Assembly (NCBI GenBank): GCA_009786985.1
Contig: WRGW01000104.1
Span: 1 to 40,652, forward strand
DNA length: 40,652 nt
Reading direction: 5' to 3'
From: Oscillospiraceae bacterium
GTDB lineage: Bacteria; Bacillota; Clostridia; Oscillospirales; Ruminococcaceae
The position numbers were made by a program, and so were the translations under genes. Below the pieces are notes generated by a model. That model saw only the letters and a list, made by a program, of their open reading frames with translations. It was not told the DNA's origin and did no database searches. Below are positions 13,876 through 29,341 of this stretch, one piece after another. Positions within the stretch are counted from its first letter, which is position 1. Every line of letters starts with the position of its first letter.

Positions 13876-16703
13876 AAAAGCACCTTCTTAAGCTCTTCTC
13901 CAGTATACGAACTTTTACAGTTAGCAACCTCTTCTGGTGTGCCGATTGCGACAATTGTCCCACCTTTGTCGCCACCAAATGGACCTAAATCGATTACATA
14001 ATCGGCGGTTTTAATCATGTCAAGATTATGTTCAATTACAACAACAGTGTTCCCATCTCCGATTAGCTTTTGCAACACTTCAATTAGTTTATGAACGTCC
14101 GCCGTATGAAGACCAGTTGTCGGCTCATCGAGGATATAAATCGTTTTACCAGTGCTACGTTTGGAAAGCTCAGTAGCGAGTTTTACTCTTTGAGCTTCTC
14201 CACCCGAAAGTGTCGTTGCAGGTTGCCCGATTTTGATATATCCTAATCCCACATCGTATAATGTGTTTAGTTTTTTGGCAATTCGTGGGATTGTCGCAAA
14301 GAACTCCATTCCCTCCTCCACCGTCATTTGCAAAACATCGTAAATATTTTTGCCTTTGTATCGAATTTCGAGGGTTTCGCGGCTGTAGCGTTTACCTTTG
14401 CAGACTTCGCACGGGACATATACGTCCGGCAAGAAGTGCATTTCGATTTTGATAATTCCATCGCCTTCGCACGCTTCACACCGCCCTCCTTTTACGTTGA
14501 ACGAAAATCTCCCAGGTCCGTAACCTTTCATTTTTGCTTCAGTAGTTGAAGCAAAAAGGTCACGAACGTCGGTAAACATACCAGTATAAGTCGCTGGATT
14601 AGAACGTGGGGTTCTTCCTATTGGCGATTGGTCAATGTCGATTACCTTGTCTAAATGCTCTGTTCCGAGGATTTTTCTAAAAGCACCAGCTTTAGTTCTT
14701 GCACGATTTAATCGGTTAGCTAAATGTTTGTGTAAAACTTCATTAATGAGTGAGCTTTTTCCGCTCCCCGAAACGCCAGTGACGCAAGTAAACACTCCGA
14801 GCGGTAGTTTGACATTGATGTCTTTAAGATTATTTTCACGTGCACCTGAAATTGATAGCATTCGATTTTTGTCAATCGCACGTCGTTCTTTAGGGACGGG
14901 GATTTGTTTTCGCCCAGATAAATACTGACCTGTGATTGAACTCTCACAAGCCTTAACTACGTCCATAGTGCCAGCACATACGATTTCGCCACCGTGAATA
15001 CCTGCACCAGGTCCTATATCTACGATATAATCGGCGGCTTTCATGGTTTCTTCGTCGTGTTCTACTACTATAAGAGTATTGCCTAAATCTCTAAGTTTTT
15101 TGAGGGTGGAAATCAGCTTGTTATTATCTCGTTGGTGAAGCCCGATACTAGGCTCATCCAAGATATACAAAACGCCCATCAAAGAACTCCCAATTTGGGT
15201 GGCGAGCCGAATACGCTGGCTTTCGCCGCCAGAAAGTGTTCCAGCTGAGCGTGAAAGACTGAGATAATCAAGACCTACGCTTTTTAAAAAGCCTAATCGT
15301 TCTTTGACTTCTTTTAGAATAGGTTCACCAATTACGCTGTCACGCTCCGACAATTCAAGGTATAGTTTGCGCGAAAAGTCAAGTGCATCAGAAATGCTTA
15401 GTCTGCAAAACTGTTGGATATTGATTCCCCCAACAGTCACGGCGAGGGCTTCGTGGTTAAGGCGTTCGCCCTTACAGTCAGGGCAAGGCACTTCACTCAT
15501 ATACTGGCTGATTTCATCGCGAGAATAGTTGCTTGTAGTATCACGATGACGACGTTCGAGATTGTGTACTAACCCTTCAAAATCGCCGTCATAAAAAGTA
15601 GTTCCACGTTCAAACACTCGTTTTAGTTTGATTTTTTTGCCTTTACTTCCGTATAACAAAATGTCAATAACTTCACTCGAAAGTTCATTCACTGGAACGT
15701 CAACCGAAAAGCCGTAATGTTTAGCCAAACCGTCAATATACATCTGGCAAATCGAACCATCGGTATAGTTCCAACCAGATGCTTTGATTGCACCGTCACG
15801 AATAGTCAAATCTTTATTAGGGAGTAACAATTCAGGGTCAACCTTCATAAAAACGCCAAGCCCCGTGCATTTTTTACAAGCACCGTAAGGATTATTAAAT
15901 GAAAACATTCGAGGAACAAGCTCTTCAATTGACGTGCCATGTTCAGTGCAAGCGTAATTTTGGCTGAAATGTAGCTCTTTCTCAGAATCACCATCAACGT
16001 CAACATAAATATTCCCACCTGCAAGCCCACCCGCAATTTCAAGTGAATCAGTTAAGCGGGAATGAATATCATCTTTGATTATAAGTCGGTCAACAATAAC
16101 TTCGATGTCATGCTTTTTATTTTTGTCGATTTTAATGCTTTCTTCGAGTTCATAAATGCTACCATCAATTCTCACTCTAACATAACCTTGTTTGCGTAAT
16201 GACTGTAGTTCTTTGGTATACTCACCCTTGCGTCCGCGAACAATTGGTGCCATCACCTGAATTTTGGTTTTAGAAGGAATCTCCATAATCTTATCAACAA
16301 TCTGGTCAATAGTTTGCTGCTTGATTTCAGCGTTACAAATCGGGCAATGTGGGATTCCGATTCGGGCGTACATCAGCCTAAGATAGTCATAGATTTCGGT
16401 AACAGTCCCCACTGTTGAGCGGGGGTTGCGTGAAGTAGTCTTTTGGTCTATAGATATAGCTGGAGAAAGACCCTCAATGCTATCGACATTAGGTTTTTCC
16501 ATCTGCCCTAAGAACTGGCGTGCATAAGAAGACAAGCTCTCGACATATCGACGCTGACCATCTGCGTAAATCGTATCGAAAGCTAAGGAAGATTTTCCGG
16601 ACCCAGACACCCCAGTCATAACAATCAGCTTGTCCCGTGGAAGTTCTAAATCAACGTTTTTAAGATTATGCTCTTTCGCACCTTTGATTATTAATTTTCG
16701 CAT
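13872..16703 (-). CDS. uvrA: Excinuclease ABC subunit A
   Basis: 943 aa, full length. UvrA finds bulky DNA lesions and loads UvrB in nucleotide excision repair. It has the two ABC ATPase modules with Walker A motifs ([19 protein letters not shown], and [16 protein letters not shown]), two ABC signatures ([24 protein letters not shown]) and Walker B segments ([26 protein letters not shown]). Zinc-module cysteines are visible ([33 protein letters not shown]). It starts 9 bp after pyrD and overlaps polA by 4 bp, so repair genes are appended to the pyrimidine operon. No LexA-type operator was noticed in front of it. Confidence 0.97.
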
Positions 16704-16712
16704 AAATGTTTA

Positions 16713-17681
16713 TCACCATTGCCTAACTTTACCGACAATTTCGCTTCCTAAATCTTTGATGTTGTGAGTGTTCATATAATGCTCAATCCCTCCGATGATT
16801 TTTAGTGGGGAGTATGGGTCGCTTATAATCACAGTTCCGATTTGCACTGCTTTTGCACCCGCTAACATCATCTCGACTGCATCGTCCGAAGTCATTACTC
16901 CACCCATTCCTACTACGTCAATTTTTACGGCGTTTGCTACCTGCCATACCATTCGTAAAGCTACTGGAAATACAGACGCACCAGATAAACCACCAACGTT
17001 GTTTCTTAGAATTGGGCGATGTGTTCTGATATCAATCCGCATTCCAAGTAGTGTGTTGATTAAAGATACTGCATCTGCACCCTCAGATTCAACTGCACGC
17101 GCTATTTCGCATACATCAGAAACATTCGGGGTGAGCTTTACCATGAGCGGTTTCTTAGTAACGGCACGTACCGATTTGGTGACTCTTGCGGCACTCTCTG
17201 TACTAACTCCCCACGCTGCACCGCCTTCTTTGACATTTGGGCAGGAGATATTTAGTTCTAACATAGAAATGTCAGATTTATCCAACCTTTCAGCAGTCTT
17301 GACATAATCGTCAAGAGTAGCACCTGCAAAATTTGCAATTACGACAGTGTCTGGTCGATTTTTACCAATAGGTGCTTTGCAAGCCTCGTTCATAAAAGGC
17401 AGATGCTTTTGCAAAAACACATCAATCCCTGGGTTTTGTAAACCTACCGAATTAAGCATACCGCTCGGCGTTTCGGCGATTCGTGGTGGAGGATTGCCCT
17501 CCCTAGGCTCAAGTGTTAGCCCTTTACAAGAAATTCCGCCGAGAATGTTAATAGGGTATAGCTCATTATAATCTTCGCCGAACCCATACGTTCCAGATGC
17601 GGCAATAATCGGGTTCGGAAAAGTCACCCCCGCTACTGTTACGGATAAATCGCGTTTTTTACGTCTGTTTCTCATGCTCAT
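16713..17681 (-). CDS. pyrD: Dihydroorotate dehydrogenase B (NAD+), catalytic subunit
   Basis: 322 aa, class 1B enzyme oxidising dihydroorotate to orotate in de novo UMP synthesis, working as a heterotetramer with PyrK. FMN-barrel motifs are present: [25 protein letters not shown], the active-site Cys segment [22 protein letters not shown], and the phosphate-binding [19 protein letters not shown]. The start overlaps the pyrK stop by 4 bp (ATGA). A second Met lies two codons in. The N-terminal Arg/Lys-rich extension RNRRKKRD is slightly unusual. Confidence 0.96.
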
Positions 17682-18442
17682 AACACAACCTCCCTACCGT
17701 CGAATACTGGTCCGTCTTTGCACACACGTTTCATGCCAGTGAGGGTCTTGCAGGCACAGACAACGCAAGCACCTACTCCACACCCCATACGTTCTTCGAG
17801 TGAAACTTCACAGCGAATATCGCGCTTAACGCATTCAGTAATCACGGCTTTTAGCATAGGTTCAGGTCCGCATGAATACACCATATCAACATCGCCTTTG
17901 TCGAGTTCTTCGACCAAGGGTGTGGTGACTTGTCCGCGAAACCCAACGCTTCCATCATCTGTGCAGGTGATTACGTGAGAATCCACACGCTTAAAATCGC
18001 CCTCTAATATGATTTTATCATAACTCCTGAAGCCGAGAATGGCTGTCGAACTTTCCCGCATTTCTTTGGCAATTGCAAGCAGTGGAGGAATACCTATTCC
18101 GCCACCAACAAGGATTACACGCCTGTCATCAGCGATTTCATCGGGTAGGGTGAACCCATTCCCAAGCGGTGCAATCATATCAATATTATCGCCGACATTT
18201 ATGCCCGTGAGTTTCGCAGTTCCGCTACCTCTAATCTCGAATACGATTTTTAGGCTGTCGTTACGTCGGTCAATTTCGCTAATCGAAATAGGGCGACGCA
18301 ACGTAAATCCGTCGATTTTGATATGCACAAATTGCCCAGGGCGAACTAATTCCACCACATCAGGGCAAAGAATTTCGTACGAATAAATTCCCGCTGAAAT
18401 AGCAGTTTTTTCGATTACTGGATACGCTCCACATTTGTACAT
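17678..18442 (-). CDS. pyrK: Dihydroorotate dehydrogenase B electron-transfer subunit
   Basis: 254 aa ferredoxin-reductase-like protein with FAD and [2Fe-2S] that passes electrons from PyrD FMN to NAD+. The FAD-binding segment is LRRPISISEID, the NAD-binding segment LVGGGIGIPPLLAIAKEM, and the cluster Cys pattern is C-x4-C-x2-C-x-C...C in MGCGVGACVVCACKTLTGM and its continuation RVCKDGPVF. Directly followed by pyrD with a 4-bp overlap. A 200-bp gap with structured repeats separates it from the membrane protein gene upstream, so pyrKD may also have its own promoter. Confidence 0.95.
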   Translation of the reverse strand: MYKCGAYPVIEKTAISAGIYSYEILCPDVVELVRPGQFVHIKIDGFTLRRPISISEIDRRNDSLKIVFEIRGSGTAKLTGINVGDNIDMIAPLGNGFTLPDEIADDRRVILVGGGIGIPPLLAIAKEMRESSTAILGFRSYDKIILEGDFKRVDSHVITCTDDGSVGFRGQVTTPLVEELDKGDVDMVYSCGPEPMLKAVITECVKRDIRCEVSLEERMGCGVGACVVCACKTLTGMKRVCKDGPVFDGREVVL

Positions 18443-18550: not shown

Positions 18551-18587
18551 GTCTCGTAGGGGTTAGCTTAAAGAGTTTTGCATGCCG

Positions 18588-18650
18588 TCGAGATAGCCCA
18601 CTACAGACGAGCAAAGCTCGTCTGTAGTGGCATACTTTTGTTTTGCTAGT
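18588..18650. repeat. CAGACGAGC hairpin repeat, copy 1
   Basis: Perfect 15-bp stem CCACTACAGACGAGC / GCTCGTCTGTAGTGG (18598-18630) with an AAA loop. Flanks GTCGAG on the left and ATACTTTTGTTTTGCTA on the right recur around the hairpin at 21503-21551. The T-rich side is on the plus strand, while the genes here run on the minus strand. Confidence 0.8.
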
Positions 18651-21489: not shown

Positions 21490-21562
21490 AGAGTGCTTCG
21501 TCGAGTATCCCCACTTCAGACGAGCAAAGCCCGTCTGAAGTGGGGATACTCTTGTTTTGCTA
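21490..21562. repeat. CAGACGAGC hairpin repeat, copy 2
   Basis: Perfect 20-bp stem from GAGTATCCCCACTTCAGACG (21503-21522) to 21532-21551 with a 9-nt loop. Homologous to 18588-18650. At one stem position A-T in copy 1 becomes T-A here, and the added C-G pairs also keep pairing. It lies between divergent pyrC and the kinase/helicase-like operon. Confidence 0.8.
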
Positions 21563-21640
21563 TTATAACATAAAAATCTGAATATGTCAAGCACTGTAAA
21601 GGCTTTTTTGAAATTTCAATAACTTATGTTGTCAAAAGTA

Positions 21641-21669
21641 TTTACAATTCGCTCAAAATATGATATACT
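21641..21669 (+). promoter_or_regulatory. Upstream promoter (P1) of the kinase/helicase-like operon
   Basis: TTTACA, 17-bp spacer, TATACT with TG one base before the -10 (extended -10). It would give a leader of ~65 nt that includes the full AAGGGGGGAG ribosome site (21727-21736). Confidence 0.75.
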
Positions 21670-21695
21670 TTTACTATGCGTTTTGTGCGTTGCGT

Positions 21696-21725
21696 TTGAC
21701 AAGTCATAAAAGTAAGGTTTATAAT
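21696..21725 (+). promoter_or_regulatory. Downstream promoter (P2) of the kinase/helicase-like operon
   Basis: Perfect TTGACA and TATAAT with an 18-bp spacer. The expected start (~21732) is only ~11 nt before the GTG start and inside the ribosome site, so P2 transcripts of the first gene would have a truncated leader. Confidence 0.7.
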
Positions 21726-21742
21726 GAAGGGGGGAGCTTTAG

Positions 21743-23800
21743 GTGTTTAATGAAAAATTTGTTGAGTTATTAAAAAACTATCCCGATGCTGTTCATTTGC
21801 GAAAAAAGCTGGTGGCACTACTGAAAGACATCTTCCCGCGGGAAGCTAAGCGAACCCGACTCCTCATAAATCTTCACGAACTTTTGATTGCTGACGAAAT
21901 CGAAAAAGCAGATATGATTGACGATAGATTCGCCTTTCGATATGTAAAACGCTTGGTGGAAGATTTTGGGGTGGGAGAACCTAATGCAATCTGGGCGGTA
22001 TGTGTCTGGTGTACGTGTTATGGGGAAGGTATTCTTGGTAAATCTTGTAGAATTAATATCGTTGAAGATACTTTCGCTTACGCCGATGATTACACAAATA
22101 ATGAGTTCGATTTCCCGGGAAATGAAAACGAGTTTAATACATGGACTACTGAGGTGACTTCGAGTATTTCAGTAGGTAACGCTGTTTTGCGTGACGGAAT
22201 CAGCGGTGTTACAAACATCACTGCTACCGAACTTGACGAAAGTGGAAACGAACCGTTTGGTTATTATCGAAACGTGTCATACAAAAAGCGTGGTAACAAG
22301 ATTTTTGTTCCATGTGCTATGGGTGAAAGCGAATACGGATATTTCATTTGCGGAATGCTTGAGAGCAAGCGTTGCGTTCACCCATATGCCAATGTTTATG
22401 CCGTTGTGTACAATTATCTTTTGCGCAGTTCTCGTATGAGAGGAGACGATAAGCCTAAGTTTTTCAAAGCTCTTGAGATGCCGTTTGAAGTCGATTATTC
22501 AAATGTATTTCGGATTATGACTGTTGTTTTACAGCTTATTAAAAACAACTATATTTCTGATTCAGCGGTGAACTTTAGATATGATGGTGATGTCACCGAA
22601 CTCAAATGTGCGTTGCTTGTACTCAACAATTATGCGGAATTGTTCTGCCGATTAATCGGGCTTAAACCTTGTCCGCCGCTCAAAATTTCTGATGAGTGTA
22701 AAGCAATCAACATATCGTTTATGAAAAAAAGCGGGGTGTATATCGAAAACAACAAAATCCCGTACAACGCCCGTGAATTATGGCGAGGTCAGAAAATCAA
22801 CTATAGGCTGACTAAAGCTAATATCATTGATTTACAATATATCTTAGAAGAAATATCGGATTTTCATGTTTTTAGAGATGGGCAATTTGACGCTCTCAAA
22901 AAAATGTTATCATTTAATGAACATTCGATGTGTTCTATGCCGAGTGGTAAAGGGAAATCTTTGCTGTTCTGTTTGGCATCGTTATTGCAACCTGTTCCGT
23001 TTTTTGTAATGGCTCCTAACTTTGAAATGATTCGTGAGCAAATTAGCAATTTAAGAAGTGTCCATAACTTTGATAATTTTTCTTTTTTGGATTTCCAATG
23101 TGAAACGGTGGAGTTCGATTTTTCAAATTTTGAAATCAGTAACAGTTTGCTTTTTATGACTTATGATTGTTTTAGAAAATCCAGCACTGGCATTAGTGGG
23201 GGTTCTCTAGCAAAAATCAACGGAATTAACGGAATTAACCATCTATCATATGTGGTTCTTGACGAAAGGCATTGTCTTGCTAATTGGAAGTTAGAGATGC
23301 CGTTTGAAAAAATAGGTAGCTTAGTTGCCAAGGCACATTATGAGGCTAATTCTGATGCTGAAGGCATTTTAGAAAATCGTTCAATTGGGGTTGGGTATAA
23401 AAACCTTAAAAAGCTCGAACTTTTTTGCGATAAAAATGTAGTGAACAGACGCTATTCGTACAGTTTTGATTTGATTTTATTTTTAGCAAAACTGCGGTTT
23501 GAAGATGTTTTTGACCATGAACGCTTAGAGCGGATTATGACAAAAGTATTAAAGAAAGACTTTATAGCTTTTATAAGTGCGGTCGTGAGAATTTATGAGT
23601 TTTGTGGCAATGAAATGCGATTTGAAATCCATAACAGCCTGGGTCTAAAATTGCAAAAATGCGGTATGGAATATTCAAAACTATTTGACCTTATATATTT
23701 ATCATCTAAAAAAGATTTGATTTATTACGGTGTACTTGCGACAAGACTAAATCGGCAGTTTGCCCCCAAAAAGCACAATCACCTTGAAAGGAGTTCATAG
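21743..23800 (+). CDS. RecQ-like protein with only the first helicase lobe
   Basis: 685 aa, GTG start with AAGGGGGGAG 6 nt upstream. Residues 1-~105 form a helical domain (LLKNYPDAVHLRKKLVALL, later AIWAVCVWCTCYGEG) resembling helical adaptor domains seen in bacterial signalling/conflict proteins, judged from memory. Residues ~110-370 are not recognised. From ~375 the protein follows RecQ helicases: F-R-D-G-Q (377-381, motif 0), MPSGKGKS (399-406, Walker A), FFVMAPNFEMIREQI (motif Ia), VVLDERHCLANW (DExH box at 507-510, compare DEAHCISQWG). The TAT motif III and the whole second RecA lobe with motifs IV-VI are not seen; ~165 unrelated residues follow. It may bind nucleic acid and ATP as a sensor rather than unwind processively. 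First gene of the six-gene unit. Confidence 0.7.
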   Translation: MFNEKFVELLKNYPDAVHLRKKLVALLKDIFPREAKRTRLLINLHELLIADEIEKADMIDDRFAFRYVKRLVEDFGVGEPNAIWAVCVWCTCYGEGILGKSCRINIVEDTFAYADDYTNNEFDFPGNENEFNTWTTEVTSSISVGNAVLRDGISGVTNITATELDESGNEPFGYYRNVSYKKRGNKIFVPCAMGESEYGYFICGMLESKRCVHPYANVYAVVYNYLLRSSRMRGDDKPKFFKALEMPFEVDYSNVFRIMTVVLQLIKNNYISDSAVNFRYDGDVTELKCALLVLNNYAELFCRLIGLKPCPPLKISDECKAINISFMKKSGVYIENNKIPYNARELWRGQKINYRLTKANIIDLQYILEEISDFHVFRDGQFDALKKMLSFNEHSMCSMPSGKGKSLLFCLASLLQPVPFFVMAPNFEMIREQISNLRSVHNFDNFSFLDFQCETVEFDFSNFEISNSLLFMTYDCFRKSSTGISGGSLAKINGINGINHLSYVVLDERHCLANWKLEMPFEKIGSLVAKAHYEANSDAEGILENRSIGVGYKNLKKLELFCDKNVVNRRYSYSFDLILFLAKLRFEDVFDHERLERIMTKVLKKDFIAFISAVVRIYEFCGNEMRFEIHNSLGLKLQKCGMEYSKLFDLIYLSSKKDLIYYGVLATRLNRQFAPKKHNHLERSS

Positions 23801-23805
23801 GAAAA

Positions 23806-24867
23806 ATGTATAGCAATATTGAACAGTTGGAAAAAGAAATCGAAACCTTTAAAGCGAATTTATCTGATTCGAACGAGCTTATGCAGATGATGAAAGTTCT
23901 CGCAACTTCCGCATCAAAACAAAATAATGCTTTGCAAGAACAGCTTGGTGAGGTTTCAAAGGTTGTCTCAACAGTTCCAGAAACAATTAGGGGAGACTAT
24001 GCGGAGTTACTTCAGGGGTTTTCGCAGAGCAAATCAGCTTATGAGGCGTATATTACCGCAATTAAAAACAGCGTTACTGAAATAAACGTACTACCGTCAA
24101 AACTTGAACAGGTTAATATTGATTTGCTCAAAAAAGCACTTTCAAAGCTACTTGATGTTCAGGCGGTTTCACAAAAAGATTTACAGAAGTCTAACGAAGA
24201 ATTTTGTAAACAAATCTCAGAATACAAATCTCATATTTCGAGCCTTGAATTAGAACTCAAAACGGTGAGTGACTCGTTTGAACAAAAACACGACGAGTTT
24301 TTGCAATTGATTTCGGGGTTAAGTCCTGAAAATCTTCAGAAACTTGAAAGCCTTGAAAACATTCAAGTACTCTGTCAAGAAAACGCTGATGCTATTGCAA
24401 AAATAGAAGTGACTCAAATTCAAGAACATGAGAAATTACTCGCACAAATTGCCAGCACTCAAGAAGCGTTTGCCAATATAAAAAATGAAGGTTCTTCTAG
24501 CGAAAACGATGTATTAAATAAAACAGTTTTGAGTATGCAAAAAGAACTCACAAATCTGCAAAATGAAATCGAAAACTGGCGTGAATGGGAAAGCCAAGGT
24601 AGGCAGGCGGAACTAGAAAAAATCGATGAGATGGAGAGCGGAATTACAAATGCTGTTTCGGAATCTGTAACCTCGCAAATTGCACGGCTTGAGAGGACTA
24701 TTATGGTTAATAGCAGTAAGATTGACGTGATTTCATTAGCCCTCGAAAAATTAGACAAACAAAATGAAGCTGAGGACACTAAAAGCCCATACCAGCGATT
24801 GTTACCGATTTATATAGGGTTAGGGGCGACAATTTTGTTGTCTTTTGTGTCTTTATTTATACGTTAG
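23806..24867 (+). CDS. Coiled-coil protein with C-terminal membrane anchor
   Basis: 353 aa. Residues ~1-320 are almost entirely heptad-rich and charged (IEQLEKEIETFKANL, LSKLLDVQAVSQKDLQKSNE, MQKELTNLQNEIENWREW), predicting long coiled coils. The last ~22 residues form one membrane helix (LLPIYIGLGATILLSFVSLF), so the protein is probably tail-anchored with the rod in the cytoplasm. No Cys or enzyme motif is seen. It starts 5 nt after the helicase-like gene, whose 3' end supplies the GAAAGGAG ribosome site, and ends where the ribosome site of the kinase gene begins (TAGGAG). It may scaffold the complex at the membrane (inference). Confidence 0.75.
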   Translation: MYSNIEQLEKEIETFKANLSDSNELMQMMKVLATSASKQNNALQEQLGEVSKVVSTVPETIRGDYAELLQGFSQSKSAYEAYITAIKNSVTEINVLPSKLEQVNIDLLKKALSKLLDVQAVSQKDLQKSNEEFCKQISEYKSHISSLELELKTVSDSFEQKHDEFLQLISGLSPENLQKLESLENIQVLCQENADAIAKIEVTQIQEHEKLLAQIASTQEAFANIKNEGSSSENDVLNKTVLSMQKELTNLQNEIENWREWESQGRQAELEKIDEMESGITNAVSESVTSQIARLERTIMVNSSKIDVISLALEKLDKQNEAEDTKSPYQRLLPIYIGLGATILLSFVSLFIR

Positions 24868-24873
24868 GAGTAT

Positions 24874-26208
24874 ATGGTGTTTGATAGTATATTTACAGAA
24901 GGCGATGCCCTCGTGTCTGATATGGGAAATAGATATGAGATTATACGCAAACTCGGCGAAGGTGGACAGGGAACTGTTTATGAAGTTGAAGATTCAAACG
25001 GAGAAAAGCACGCTCTAAAGTGGTATTTCAAAAAATTCGCTACTGATAAACAAAAAAATATAGTCGAAAACTTAGTCAGGCTCGGAGCTCCTAATAGCAC
25101 TTTTTTATGGCCTGAAGATATTATCTATGGTGAAGATAACGACTCAGTTTTTAGATTCAGTGTAGGTGCTTTTGGATATGTAATGCCACTCAGACCACCT
25201 AATTATAGAGGTATCATTGATTTGATGAAACGCCGTGCTGAACCGTCATTCAAAAATTTATGCAAAGCGGCGTTCAGCCTCACCAAAGGATACGAACGTT
25301 TACATGAAATGGGGTTGGCTTATGGCGATATTTCATTTGGGAACTTGTTTTTTGACCCGAATAGTGGCGAAGTTCTGATTTGTGATAATGACAACGCATC
25401 TTACTCTAACGAAGAAATGTCGGTTTATGGAACGCCCCGTTTTATGGCTCCTGAAATTGTAATCGGCAAAGCACGCGCTTCACGTAATACTGACTTGTTT
25501 TCGCTTTCGGTGTTGTTGTTTAATATATTCATGCTAAGCCACCCCTTGGAAGGCGAACAAGAAGTCAAAATCAAATGTATGGACATCCCTGCCATGAACC
25601 GTATTTATGGGCATAACCCTGTGTTCATCTTCGACCCGAAAAATAGCACTAATCGACCAGTGACTGGAGTTCACGACAATGCACTAATCTATTGGGAGTT
25701 ATACCCTGCACGTTTGCGCGAACTGTTCACTAAGGCTTTTACCATAGGTCTAAAAGAACCGCAAAGACGTGTTACCGAAAAAGAATGGAAGACCGCACTC
25801 GCCAATATGGCGTTCGGAATAACCCCATGTTCGTGTGGGGCAGAGAACTTTTATGATATGCAGGCGGTTCAGAGTGGAAAAGTTCTCACTTGTTGGAACT
25901 CACAGTGTCGCAAACAACTCACTACACCGAGTGTATTTACCTGTGGGAAAAACCAAGCGGTTTTGCAAAAAGGTGCAATTTTATATTCGCATCACATCAA
26001 TAATGATTATGATATTGACACAGTTGTAGGAACAGTAGTTCAAAACCCTAATAACCCCAATCTATGGGGAATCCGCAATGATAGCAAAACTAACTGGACT
26101 TATATCAAAGCAGACGGAACACAAATCCCAGTCGCACCTGGGAAAAGTGCAATGATTGTAAAGGGTGCGAAATTGAATTTTGGTTTAGATATTGGAACTT
26201 TTATTTAA
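24874..26208 (+). CDS. Serine/threonine protein kinase with C-terminal zinc ribbon (TerY-P type)
   Basis: 444 aa. Residues ~20-310 are a protein kinase: Gly loop GEGGQGTVYEV (28-38), ALKW with Lys49, catalytic loop Y-G-D-I-S-x2-N (D152, N157), metal-binding D-N-D (171-173) and APE (192-194). The HRD Arg and DFG Gly are replaced, as in other kinases of this bacterial group, but the Asp and Lys residues needed for catalysis are present. Residues 319-345 carry C-x-C...C-x4-C, a zinc ribbon. The last ~90 residues are a beta-rich domain (LWGIRNDSKTNWTYIKADG). Followed by vWA and PP2C genes, the combination known as the TerY-P triad. Start ATG at 24874 with TAGGAG. Confidence 0.9.
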   Translation: MVFDSIFTEGDALVSDMGNRYEIIRKLGEGGQGTVYEVEDSNGEKHALKWYFKKFATDKQKNIVENLVRLGAPNSTFLWPEDIIYGEDNDSVFRFSVGAFGYVMPLRPPNYRGIIDLMKRRAEPSFKNLCKAAFSLTKGYERLHEMGLAYGDISFGNLFFDPNSGEVLICDNDNASYSNEEMSVYGTPRFMAPEIVIGKARASRNTDLFSLSVLLFNIFMLSHPLEGEQEVKIKCMDIPAMNRIYGHNPVFIFDPKNSTNRPVTGVHDNALIYWELYPARLRELFTKAFTIGLKEPQRRVTEKEWKTALANMAFGITPCSCGAENFYDMQAVQSGKVLTCWNSQCRKQLTTPSVFTCGKNQAVLQKGAILYSHHINNDYDIDTVVGTVVQNPNNPNLWGIRNDSKTNWTYIKADGTQIPVAPGKSAMIVKGAKLNFGLDIGTFI

Positions 26209-26225
26209 TGAAGGAGATTTAGATT

Positions 26226-26942
26226 ATGGCTGGATTAAAAAGACCGGGCGGCGAACTTTCAAGCAGACCTCTTCACTTTATCTGGATGGTTGACTGTTCG
26301 GGTTCAATGTTTGGCGAAAAAATAGGAACGGTGAATCACGCTATTCAGGATACTATCCCTGAAATGCTTGATGCCGCCAATAATAACCCTTACGCACAAC
26401 TCCTTGTTAGAACTTTACGGTTCTCTGATGGAGCGTCGTGGGTAACAACTACACCGACTAAAATCGAAGAATTTGCATGGAGCGATTTGGAAGCGGATGG
26501 TGTCACTAACTTAGGTGCAGCACTAAACTTGCTTTCAGCACAGCTGACTATTCCACCGATGAGTGATAGAGCTTTGCCTCCAGTAATAGTACTTTTGTCG
26601 GACGGTCAGCCAACTGATGATTATAAGACCGAGCTTAGTAAGTTATTAAGCCTTCCATGGGGAAAAAAAGCGGTAAGAATTGCAATTGCAATCGGCGGAG
26701 ACGCTGATAAAGAAGTGCTTGCCGAATTTACAGGTAACAAAGAGCTTGTCCTAGAAGCTAAGAACCGCGAAATGCTTGTTAAGATGATTAAATGGGCATC
26801 TACTGCTGCGTCAATGGTATCCTCGCCAGCAAGCCAGAGTGTTGATAGAGAGTCAACGGCAGTTACTGACAGTGACACTCCGCTTATGGTAGATTTAGAC
26901 ACCCTCCCGAGTTTAGGTGCGGATGATGCTGATGTCTGGTGA
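26226..26942 (+). CDS. TerY-like von Willebrand factor A domain protein
   Basis: 238 aa, mostly a single vWA domain. The MIDAS metal site is complete: D-C-S-G-S (23-27), Thr in GVTNLGAAL, and Asp in VLLSDGQPTDDY. vWA domains of the TerY class bind a partner through the metal ion and are thought to be phospho-regulated by the kinase/phosphatase pair. The C-terminal ~40 residues are acidic and Ser/Thr-rich, a possible phosphorylation target (inference). GAAGGAG lies 8 nt before the ATG. The 3' end overlaps the phosphatase gene, so expression of the two is coupled. Confidence 0.9.
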   Translation: MAGLKRPGGELSSRPLHFIWMVDCSGSMFGEKIGTVNHAIQDTIPEMLDAANNNPYAQLLVRTLRFSDGASWVTTTPTKIEEFAWSDLEADGVTNLGAALNLLSAQLTIPPMSDRALPPVIVLLSDGQPTDDYKTELSKLLSLPWGKKAVRIAIAIGGDADKEVLAEFTGNKELVLEAKNREMLVKMIKWASTAASMVSSPASQSVDRESTAVTDSDTPLMVDLDTLPSLGADDADVW

Positions 26943-27762
26943 GCAGATAGACATTATTAAAGCACGAGTTCGAGGCGCTTCACACAAACTCAAAGGAATT
27001 GAATGCCAGGACAGTTTCAAAATTAGCCAAATGGGGGAGGTGACCGTTCTCGCAGTTGCCGATGGTCACGGTAGCGATTCTTGCCCGCATAGCAGAACTG
27101 GCTCTGAAATTGCTGTAAATGTCTTTCATTCCTTGATGAAAAAATATTGCCTTGTGTATTCTCATGACGCTGATTCGCCCAAAACGCTGGAGGCTTATTT
27201 TAAGCGAGAGGGTAATCATGCGATTGCAAAAGCGATTGAAAATGAGTGGAAAAGCCGTGTTGAAAATAATTATCGTAAGCGTTTAGGTTCTGGCAATTTA
27301 GGTGACGCAAAAATCCTTCCGCAAATTTGGAAATTGCATGGCACTACTTTGTTAGGGCTTGTAATCACGCCAACTTTTTATTTTGCTTTTCGATTAGGTG
27401 ATGGTGATTTGCTTTGTATCAATCATGATGGTGTGGTGTCTGATTTAGTGATTGACGAAAAAATTCTCGGTGTAGAAACTCACTCACTTAGTCGCGAAAA
27501 TGCGTGGGAAAAATCTCGCACATCTACCATCAGCACTGGTGAAATGGATGTGGGGAGGAACTTTGCGTTCATGTTATCGACTGATGGATTTTCAAACAGC
27601 TATCCTACCGAAGAGGCTTTTTACCGTACTTGCCTTGATTATTATTCGGCGATTAAGGAACACGGTGCAGAGATTGTCCAGAAAAATCTACGGAAATGGC
27701 TCGAAGAAACAAGCAAAGACGGTAGTGGCGATGATATTACTGTCTTGTTTGCTGTTGTGTAA
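26932..27762 (+). CDS. PP2C-type protein phosphatase
   Basis: 276 aa from ATG 26932; starts at 26917 (GTG), 26923 and 26926 are also possible and all overlap the vWA gene. It would remove phosphate from Ser/Thr of the partner kinase or vWA protein. PP2C metal-binding motifs are present: G-I-E-C-Q-D-S, VADGHGSDS (Asp44), FRLGDGDLLCI, LSTDGFSNSY and the C-terminal GSGDDITVLFAV. It belongs to the compact PP2C form that accompanies TerY-P kinases. No membrane or extra domain is seen. Confidence 0.9.
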   Translation: MSGEQIDIIKARVRGASHKLKGIECQDSFKISQMGEVTVLAVADGHGSDSCPHSRTGSEIAVNVFHSLMKKYCLVYSHDADSPKTLEAYFKREGNHAIAKAIENEWKSRVENNYRKRLGSGNLGDAKILPQIWKLHGTTLLGLVITPTFYFAFRLGDGDLLCINHDGVVSDLVIDEKILGVETHSLSRENAWEKSRTSTISTGEMDVGRNFAFMLSTDGFSNSYPTEEAFYRTCLDYYSAIKEHGAEIVQKNLRKWLEETSKDGSGDDITVLFAVV

Positions 27763-27801
27763 AGTTAAACGAAGGAGTTTGGGGGAAGTTATTCTCCATT
27801 T

Positions 27802-29244
27802 ATGAATGAATACATGGAACAATTATTATTACTGGCATCCGTAATAGTTTTAATCTCGATTTTTTTATGTAAAGGGATGTATAGATTTGGCGTGCCATCT
27901 CTACTAATTTTTATTCTTATAGGAATGGCACTCGGTTCTGACGGATTAGGTGGAATTTATTTTGATAACTTTTTATTGACACAAAACATATCGTCGATTG
28001 CACTGGCGATTATTATGTTCTTCGGCGGATTCGGAACTAAATGGAGTACTGCACGCCCGATTGCAGTTAAAGCGGTTCTACTCTCGAGTGCGGGAACGGT
28101 TATAACCGCACTTGTAACATCGGTGTTTGCTATGTGGATTTTAGGGGTGAGTTTTCCTTTTGGATTACTTTTTGGTTCGGTAATCGCTTCAACCGATGCG
28201 GCGAGTGTCTTTTCGATTTTGCGTTCGAGGCGACTAAATCTCAAAAATGGATTAGCCCCCCTACTCGAAATTGAGAGCGGGAGTAATGACCCTACTGCTT
28301 TTTTGATGACGATTTTTTCGATTACACTTATCATGGCGGACGGTTCGTCAACTGGCGAACTTGCGATTTTTCTTATACAGCAGGTTATTATCGGAGGCGC
28401 GATTGGTGTCTGCATAGCTTTTGTATTGGTGTTCGCACTAAACAAATTAAACCTTGAAATGACTGGGATGTATCCTCTACTAATCATGGCTTTTGTAATT
28501 GCAGGATATTCGTTAGCGATGATTGTTGGTGGAAACGGCTTTTTGTGCGTTTATCTAATCGGAATCATCAGCGGTAATTTGAAGACAATTCAAAAATTAA
28601 GCCTTGTGAAATTTTTTGATTCAATTGCGTGGTTTATGCAGATTATGCTGTTTATTGTATTAGGTTTATTAGCATTTCCATCACAAATTCCTAATGTGGC
28701 ATTATCTGGGGCGTTGTTGGCATTGGCGATTATGTTCGTAGCGAGACCGATTGCGGTTTTTGGGATTTTGAGCTGGTTTAAAGTCCCTATTAAACAACAG
28801 CTTTTTGTATCTTTTGTGGGGCTTAGAGGAGCCGCATCGATTGTATTTGCAATTTTTGTTGTGGCACGAATGGGTTCAGATGCGGTAGGATATGATATTT
28901 TTCATATCGTTTTCATAGTATCATTATTTTCTATTGCTTTGCAAGGAACTTTGCTCCCGACTTTGGCAAGAAAGCTCGATTTAGTAGAGTGTGACGGTGA
29001 TGCTGTTTTACGAACTTTTAACGACTTTCAGGAGCAGAACCTCGCCGATTTAATAGAATACACTGTTTCGGAACAACATCATCTAGCGAATAAAAAAATT
29101 ATCGACGCTAATATACCAGACGATGTTTTAGTGGTTATGCTTAGACGACACGGGAAATTTATCACACCTAACGGTGCAACTAAAATCATGCCTGGTGACG
29201 TATTAGTTCTTAGCGGCAATAGTTTTGATTTTCTTGAAAGCTAA
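27802..29244 (+). CDS. NhaP2/CvrA-type cation/proton antiporter
   Basis: 480 aa CPA1-family antiporter with ~12-13 membrane helices (residues ~5-400) and a C-terminal cytoplasmic TrkA-C-like domain (~415-478, DDVLVVMLRRHGKFITPNGA, ending PGDVLVLSG). The ion-site motif ESGSNDP (158-164) and ASTDAASVFSIL are typical of NhaP2-like K+(Na+)/H+ antiporters. It exchanges monovalent cations for protons. The TrkA-C domain suggests control by a ligand. It begins 39 bp after the phosphatase gene; GAAGGAG lies ~24 nt before the ATG, farther than usual, with GGGGGAAG in between. The hairpin at 29246 follows at once, so it is probably the last gene of the unit. Confidence 0.9.
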   Translation: MNEYMEQLLLLASVIVLISIFLCKGMYRFGVPSLLIFILIGMALGSDGLGGIYFDNFLLTQNISSIALAIIMFFGGFGTKWSTARPIAVKAVLLSSAGTVITALVTSVFAMWILGVSFPFGLLFGSVIASTDAASVFSILRSRRLNLKNGLAPLLEIESGSNDPTAFLMTIFSITLIMADGSSTGELAIFLIQQVIIGGAIGVCIAFVLVFALNKLNLEMTGMYPLLIMAFVIAGYSLAMIVGGNGFLCVYLIGIISGNLKTIQKLSLVKFFDSIAWFMQIMLFIVLGLLAFPSQIPNVALSGALLALAIMFVARPIAVFGILSWFKVPIKQQLFVSFVGLRGAASIVFAIFVVARMGSDAVGYDIFHIVFIVSLFSIALQGTLLPTLARKLDLVECDGDAVLRTFNDFQEQNLADLIEYTVSEQHHLANKKIIDANIPDDVLVVMLRRHGKFITPNGATKIMPGDVLVLSGNSFDFLES

Positions 29245-29245
29245 G

Positions 29246-29341
29246 ATATTAAGCCTTACAAAACGCCAAGCGTTTTGTAAGGCTTAATATTGTGCAACCG
29301 AAACAGGCACTTTTTGAGCAATACTGAACATTGAACAGGCT
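29246..29341. repeat. Terminator hairpin plus dispersed-repeat tail
   Basis: Perfect 21-bp stem (29246-29266 with 29270-29290, beginning ATATTAAGCCTTACAAAACG) and a CAA loop, 1 nt after the antiporter stop. The tail (GAAACAGGCAC, T5, GAGCA, ...GAACAGGC) resembles the tail of the element at 32571-32700. It probably ends both the rightward operon and the convergent spoIIP transcript. Confidence 0.8.

Follow-up and report, generated by a model that had tools for sequence, protein, structure and literature searches.

We report that a 40,652-nucleotide stretch of an Oscillospiraceae bacterium genome (GenBank assembly GCA_009786985.1, contig WRGW01000104.1; hereafter the window) carries a conserved cassette of five forward-strand genes encoding P1, a protein with a remnant of a RecQ-type helicase, P2, a membrane coiled-coil protein, a Ser/Thr kinase, a von Willebrand factor A (vWA) protein and a PP2C phosphatase, and that the N-terminal end domain of P1, termed P1N, is a widespread element found mostly beside such kinase-vWA-PP2C triads. 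We read the cassette, with a probability of roughly 0.6, as a TerY-P-like switch that is coupled to interchangeable proteins by P1N, P1 of the window being a membrane-tethered adaptor. We assign the window system to the TerY-P type, P1N being its most novel element.

Six forward-strand open reading frames (ORFs) of 685, 353, 444, 238, 276-281 and 480 aa occupy positions 21743-29244, with intergenic gaps of +5, +6, +17, -11 (counting PP2C from the ATG at 26932) and +39 bp. A preliminary description based on the sequence letters had given the same genes and spacing, which we confirmed, and had proposed that all six form one unit: foreign or damaged DNA would be sensed by a one-lobed RecQ-like protein, the signal would pass through the triad, and an antiporter, the last gene, would alter ion balance as output. 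The first P1 scan of genome contigs gave no match; a P1 search of 99 relatives (own genome included) returned, besides matches to the helicase part only, three genomes of the same genus (G003, G041 and G047; loci L019, L020 and L021), all with P1, P2, kinase, vWA and PP2C in the window order. Counting the window, four genomes hold all five genes in one order, with differing downstream genes. The last gene is a K+/H+ antiporter by NF003716 (549.8 bits, cut-off 355), and the 39-bp gap before it, with no forward-strand promoter-like site listed within, would suit its proposed role as output; however, it is absent from all three other cassettes, where the following gene is queA-like, gyrA/parC-like (cut by the contig end) and pfkB-like in L019-L021 (by eye). 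Of the 71 genus genomes, 30 (the own genome among them) have antiporter homologues, and the neighbourhoods of the three closest (L235-L237, 14-15 kb each) contain no other cassette gene. The six-gene unit with an antiporter output was therefore rejected: the conserved unit is five genes and the antiporter is a separate neighbour. A vWA match (E 1e-15) was present in 8 of the 71 genus genomes and all five genes in four of those eight, in keeping with a P1-P2 pair that travels with the triad; among 196 class genomes searched with the vWA protein at a strict E of 1e-20, only the own genome gave a match. In L021, a large serine-recombinase-like ORF (16640-18232; by eye) follows the G047 cassette at a distance of about 3 kb.

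The assignment of the kinase, vWA and PP2C genes to a TerY-P-like triad was borne out. The metal ion-dependent adhesion site (MIDAS; DxSxS...T...D) of the vWA protein is present, DCSGS, T94 and D126 being invariant in the four cassettes; Pfam scores are 29.4 bits for VWA (cut-off 23.8), 71.9 for Pkinase and 121.1 for PP2C_2, and PP2C is adjacent and on the same strand in all four cassettes. Identity to the window proteins across cassettes is 66-76% for vWA and 53-65% for the kinase, with MIDAS and catalytic-loop residues invariant. The PADLOC TerY model gave a weak, partial match to the window vWA (E 5.5e-4). The C-terminal cysteines of the kinase are putatively zinc-ribbon-like, the paired-cysteine pattern being matched by a loose regular expression in the window kinase and in 80 of 85 kinases. 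A similarly loose expression shows vWA proteins to end in an acidic residue (or Asn) followed by W, mostly DVW, in 96 of 104 ORFs; this tail, encoded at 26931-26942 in the window, may be a docking peptide. A gene of 124-179 aa stands just before the kinase in L086, L089, L090, L094, L095, L098 and L102 and is missing from the window cassette; it is PH- or GRAM-like by eye (the L098 copy judged by size only), and the L090 and L102 copies have no Pfam match. The vWA protein matches 2273 plasmid records, with less than 60% identity at the best place of each, and the 20 listed are annotated as vWA, TerY or TerY-C or carry no annotation; one IMG/VR contig (L245, 47% identity) and one phage record (MT835511.1, 33%) also carry a vWA relative.

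P1N and its linkage to the triad

A P1N model was trained on the four cassette P1 proteins and iterated on 101 vWA loci, consisting of 80 of 84 relatives from a vWA scan of named genomes plus the window (set A, 81 loci) and 20 family loci picked from the best-scoring vWA matches of the family. It detected P1N in 93 ORFs of these loci, one of which (L102, 1119 aa) is marginal at 1e-3. Within set A, 59 of the 81 vWA loci have the domain, as do 56 of the 72 where kinase, vWA and PP2C were all found. Of the 93 ORFs, 80 carry it near the N-terminus, 11 at the C-terminus and 2 elsewhere; D, L and W residues are conserved in it. None of the 58 non-redundant members matched Pfam at E 0.01; NCBIfam and PADLOC each gave two single-member matches, both unconvincing, and no solved structure matched P1N convincingly (best E 0.0069).

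The tie to the triad was tested beyond locus sampling by genome-wide searches. A four-sequence P1N model applied to 396 family genomes (own included) returned 12 matches outside the own genome: nine directly upstream of kinase-vWA-PP2C, two beside a triad-type kinase only and one beside neither. A 58-sequence model applied to 254 phylum genomes (own included), with only matches at E 1e-5 or better listed, returned one other genome, whose three copies all surround one triad. Finally, the 58-sequence model gave 29 matches in 19 of 20 whole genomes (18 with chosen vWA loci, plus G000 and G047), of which 24 lie within ~11 kb of a vWA match, 23 of these near an RPGG-type vWA (distances by eye); this test is the weakest of the three because many of the copies were already in the model. 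Two g253 genomes have an apparently split triad, with P1N and kinase in one place and vWA on another contig (L247 versus L074 in G525, where PP2C is also on the vWA contig; L248 in G653).

Among the Pfam families listed (25 of 93), the 93 P1N ORFs carry FGE-sulfatase (13), Beta_helix (10), LRR_5 (6), SH3_3 (6), DEAD (5), Sel1 (3), UvrD-helicase (2) and WD40 (1). We give about even odds to a modular platform in which the kinase-vWA-PP2C switch takes RecQ, UvrD, LRR, beta-helix, SH3, FGE-sulfatase and WD40 proteins as sensors or effectors. The frequency of binding or repeat modules among these payloads would also suit a housekeeping module for stress or envelope signalling, with P2 placing the kinase at the membrane and no part in phage defence, and the flanking window ORFs that were read by eye look ordinary. 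Against such a module stand a patchy distribution (4 of 71 genus genomes), differing downstream genes, a helicase with a nuclease domain (MTES_1575) in L086 and the published antiphage activity of TerY-P, and we regard it as rather unlikely.

Helicase-type partners recur at triad loci (62 of 98 listed neighbours scanned). At L086 (3796-9258), a DUF4011 superfamily helicase with an MTES_1575 nuclease domain is immediately followed by a protein with a C-terminal P1N, and a neighbour at L100 (11521-17061) is 51% identical to this helicase. Three of the 62 scanned neighbours match the PsyrT and DpdF models, with best E below 1e-48.

P1, P2 and the stepwise removal of the helicase

A vWA scan of named genomes uncovered two longer P1 proteins, in an uncultured Ruminococcus metagenome-assembled genome (L090, 1056 aa) and in Syntrophaceticus schinkii (L089, 808 aa plus an overlapping 254-aa ORF). 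By Pfam, DEAD and Helicase_C domains are both present in L090 and in the 808-aa ORF of L089, and the best solved-structure match of L090 is 1oyw (residues 349-685, E 5.5e-31), which we take to be E. coli RecQ. Alignment of P1 proteins of 1056, 685, 600, 517 and 188 aa reveals that the helicase has been progressively removed while the ends were retained (motif names follow general usage). Compared with L089 and L090, the window protein and that of the G003 contig (L088) keep motifs 0, I, Ia and II and have lost the aromatic loop, motifs III-VI and lobe 2; the G041 protein (L096) has additionally lost Walker A and Ia; and the G047 protein (L097) is without both the middle region and the entire helicase, so that P1N and a shortened C-terminal domain, P1C, remain, with the other four cassette genes intact. 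An assembly error is unlikely because the lobe 2 boundary falls at almost the same place in the window, L088 and L096. Only one lobe is present, as the preliminary description stated; a one-lobed RecQ as a stand-alone form was rejected, for the homologues carry two lobes flanked by these same end domains. As the two RecA lobes, full motif set 0-VI and aromatic-rich loop of a RecQ are not found together in it, the window P1 should not unwind DNA.

In a tree of kinase-vWA-PP2C built from 35 of 41 tried loci, the four cassettes group in a single clade (support 0.998) that excludes L089 and L090; support is weak for the window-L088 node (0.498) and for the sister group (0.565). The simplest account is that helicase parts were lost several times. 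The names of the isolates behind L088, L096 and L097 hint at termite guts. Between L089 and L090, lobe 1 is the best-conserved part (129/182, against 34/99 for P1N), whereas between the window and L088 the order is reversed (75/145 for lobe 1, 69/105 for P1N; p=0.028), and constraint appears to have shifted from lobe 1 toward P1N in the truncated forms. A search for the P1 middle region in 398 phylum genomes returned the own genome and one marginal match with 2 stops. Carriage of the cassette by mobile elements was considered and set aside: no relative of this region was found in viral contigs. Plasmid matches to P1 (14 records) cover residues 332-515 only, that is, the helicase part.

The second end domain, P1C, was found in 6 loci and the N-terminal motif of P2 in 7, in a search of triad-anchored loci. 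At the six shared loci P1C directly precedes P2; the seventh is L093, whose contig begins just upstream of an 82-aa P2. This short P2 is little beyond the motif and a membrane helix, which suggests that these are the essential parts of P2. The C-terminal membrane helix of the window P2 reaches a peak mean hydropathy of 2.06 from residue 332. ZorA-, DruC- and Lmu-like matches of P2 were judged to be coiled-coil matches.

These data bear on two further readings. The DNA-sensing role given to the RecQ-like protein in the preliminary description draws on the Walker A and DExH residues kept in lobe 1 and on the recurrence of RecQ-, UvrD- and DUF4011-type helicases at triad loci; it fares badly against the loss of lobe 2, motifs III-VI and the aromatic loop, against relatives that shed the remaining helicase and, L096 being without Walker A and L097 without any helicase, nevertheless keep the other four genes intact, and against the absence of the antiporter described above, and we consider the sensor-relay-antiporter model very improbable. 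Alternatively, the cassette could be a decaying defence system, its helicase lost because selection on the whole unit relaxed, as the stepwise loss and the lower lobe 1 conservation among truncated forms might suggest; but all five ORFs are open in four genomes, the triad is conserved, and P1N and part of P1C persist after the helicase is gone, which makes decay unlikely.

Proposed mechanism and relation to known systems

The reading that we prefer, a TerY-P-like switch coupled by P1N to interchangeable proteins, would work as follows. Kinase, vWA and PP2C would constitute a reversible-phosphorylation switch onto which P1N docks interchangeable proteins. In this lineage the coupled protein would have been a RecQ-type helicase with P1N in front, P1C at the back and P2 encoded adjacent; P1C would bind P2, and P2 would hold the docked protein at the membrane, while the kinase and the phosphatase would control the state of P1 or P2. 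Phage or damaged DNA was probably the target of the full-length ancestor, and the window P1 would now be a membrane-tethered adaptor, at most ATP-binding. We put even odds on P1N being an undescribed docking domain of a modular platform spanning several phyla, in which a helicase payload was deleted stepwise with both docking ends kept, turning an enzyme into an adaptor.

Several observations weigh against this interpretation. No P1N was found at 22 of the 81 set A loci, some of them clipped by contig ends, and in the family set it was found at 7 of 20 loci; for 5 of the 29 whole-genome matches, the surrounding 9-15 kb contain no triad gene; and the rarity of P1N outside triad-bearing genomes, as sampled, was read from the matches at E 1e-5 or better. 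The P1C-P2 pairing was sought only in triad-anchored loci. The window P1 retains its Walker A and DExH residues, and residual ATP binding may therefore matter. The shift of constraint rests on few sequences, the same trend lacking significance for window-L096 (p=0.14) and L088-L096 (p=0.11). Lastly, a TerY-C-like ORF (L236, 249-1112; by eye) stands ~5 kb away from the closest antiporter homologue (G678); the genus vWA search found no vWA match in G678.

TerY-P triads were reportedly studied by Anantharaman 2012 and Gao 2020 (both cited in PMC11090510), and it is not known, to our knowledge, how they select what they regulate. If P1N couples many of the RPGG-type triads covered here to varied partners, this would be a direct answer to how triads choose their targets, and P1N would serve as a sequence tag by which further sensors and effectors under triad control could be located. 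The P1 size series lets one ask which parts of a helicase system stay necessary once the motor is gone.

With the TerY-P triad as described in PMC11090510 the window shares a MIDAS vWA, PP2C and a zinc-ribbon kinase in adjacent genes with a DNA-processing association. The window differs in its RPGG-type vWA, which matches the PADLOC TerY model weakly, in its extra P1N protein and P2, and in having no TerY-C gene among its five. As in type II and III-A CoCoNuT systems (PMC11090510), a TerY-P triad stands beside helicase and coiled-coil proteins; unlike them, the six window proteins include no McrB-type GTPase or McrC/Cnu nuclease, and none matched the McrB, McrC or HEPN families. With RecQ-, DpdF- and PsyrT-type helicases the likeness lies in the DEAD and Helicase_C domains of L089 and L090, the window P1 differing by its single lobe and by P1N, the middle region and P1C; its lobe 1 matches DpdF and PsyrT weakly in PADLOC, and it scores 11 bits with the DpdF equivalog model against 550 required. 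P2 shares a coiled coil and a membrane segment with Zorya ZorA (weak ZorA3 match, E 8.3e-5) and differs in having no MotA/ExbB-type Pfam match and its strongest helix at the C-terminus.

A defence role of the cassette is suggested by analogy, because helicases and a nuclease-bearing helicase are found at triad loci of relatives, CoCoNuT loci contain TerY-P triads (PMC11090510), TerY-P clusters of H. pylori include helicase and nuclease genes (PMC4978471) and TerY-P protected PAO1 from phage (PMC10889362; also PMC7699616). The link of the triad to conflict systems made in the preliminary description is thus supported from the literature. In searches of the open-licence PMC literature, neither P1N nor a RecQ-type protein accompanied by P2 at a triad turned up among the papers listed; priority is not established.

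Locus layout

The preliminary description had also placed the genes behind tandem promoters and before a hairpin, between leftward pyrC and spoIIP, and all these features were found (Table 1). The promoters are consensus matches only, of 12/12 (21696-21725) and 10/12 (21641-21669), and the scan for sigma-70-type sites gave 37 in all, where shuffled sequences averaged 24.0 (sd 5.3). The hairpin has no clear T-run on its forward-strand side. The flanking leftward ORFs are pyrC-like and spoIIP-like (named by eye). Pfam matches of the six proteins are DEAD, lobe 1 only (P1 aa 381-527), Pkinase, VWA, PP2C_2, and Na_H_Exchanger with TrkA_C; the 353-aa P2 falls below every Pfam family cut-off.

Table 1. 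Features of the cassette region, in window coordinates.
Feature	Coordinates	Strand	Basis
Two tandem sigma-70-type promoter-like sites (10/12, 12/12)	21641..21725	+	consensus scan
P1, 685 aa: P1N, middle region, truncated RecQ lobe 1, P1C	21743..23800	+	
P1N, ~90-aa domain common to triad-linked proteins	21752..22060	+	profile, 93 ORFs
P1 middle region, typical of helicase-type P1 proteins	22295..22852	+	alignment
Remnant RecQ-type RecA lobe 1 (motifs 0, I, Ia, II present)	22841..23332	+	Pfam and alignment
P1C, C-terminal domain, retained even without helicase	23462..23782	+	alignment, profile
P2, coiled coil, conserved N-terminal motif, C-terminal membrane helix	23806..24867	+	
Ser/Thr kinase, C-terminal zinc-ribbon-like cysteines (putative) and C-terminal extension	24874..26208	+	
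TerY-like vWA, RPGG type, MIDAS intact, C-terminal DVW tail	26226..26942	+	
PP2C phosphatase (ATG 26932; ORF opens at GTG 26917)	26932..27762	+	
K+/H+ antiporter-like gene, neighbour outside the conserved unit	27802..29244	+	NF003716
Hairpin (21-bp stem, 3-nt loop) separating the convergent antiporter and spoIIP genes	29246..29290	.	

No empty pyrC-spoIIP site was seen among the five neighbourhoods (L238-L242) opened from 63 genus genomes with a pyrC match; these contained other genes or broke off. The palindromic hairpin before pyrC (21490-21580; also 18586-18648) is a dispersed REP-like repeat. The own genome has 59 matches to it, of which some lie in tandem clusters and some are the same palindrome matched on the opposite strand.

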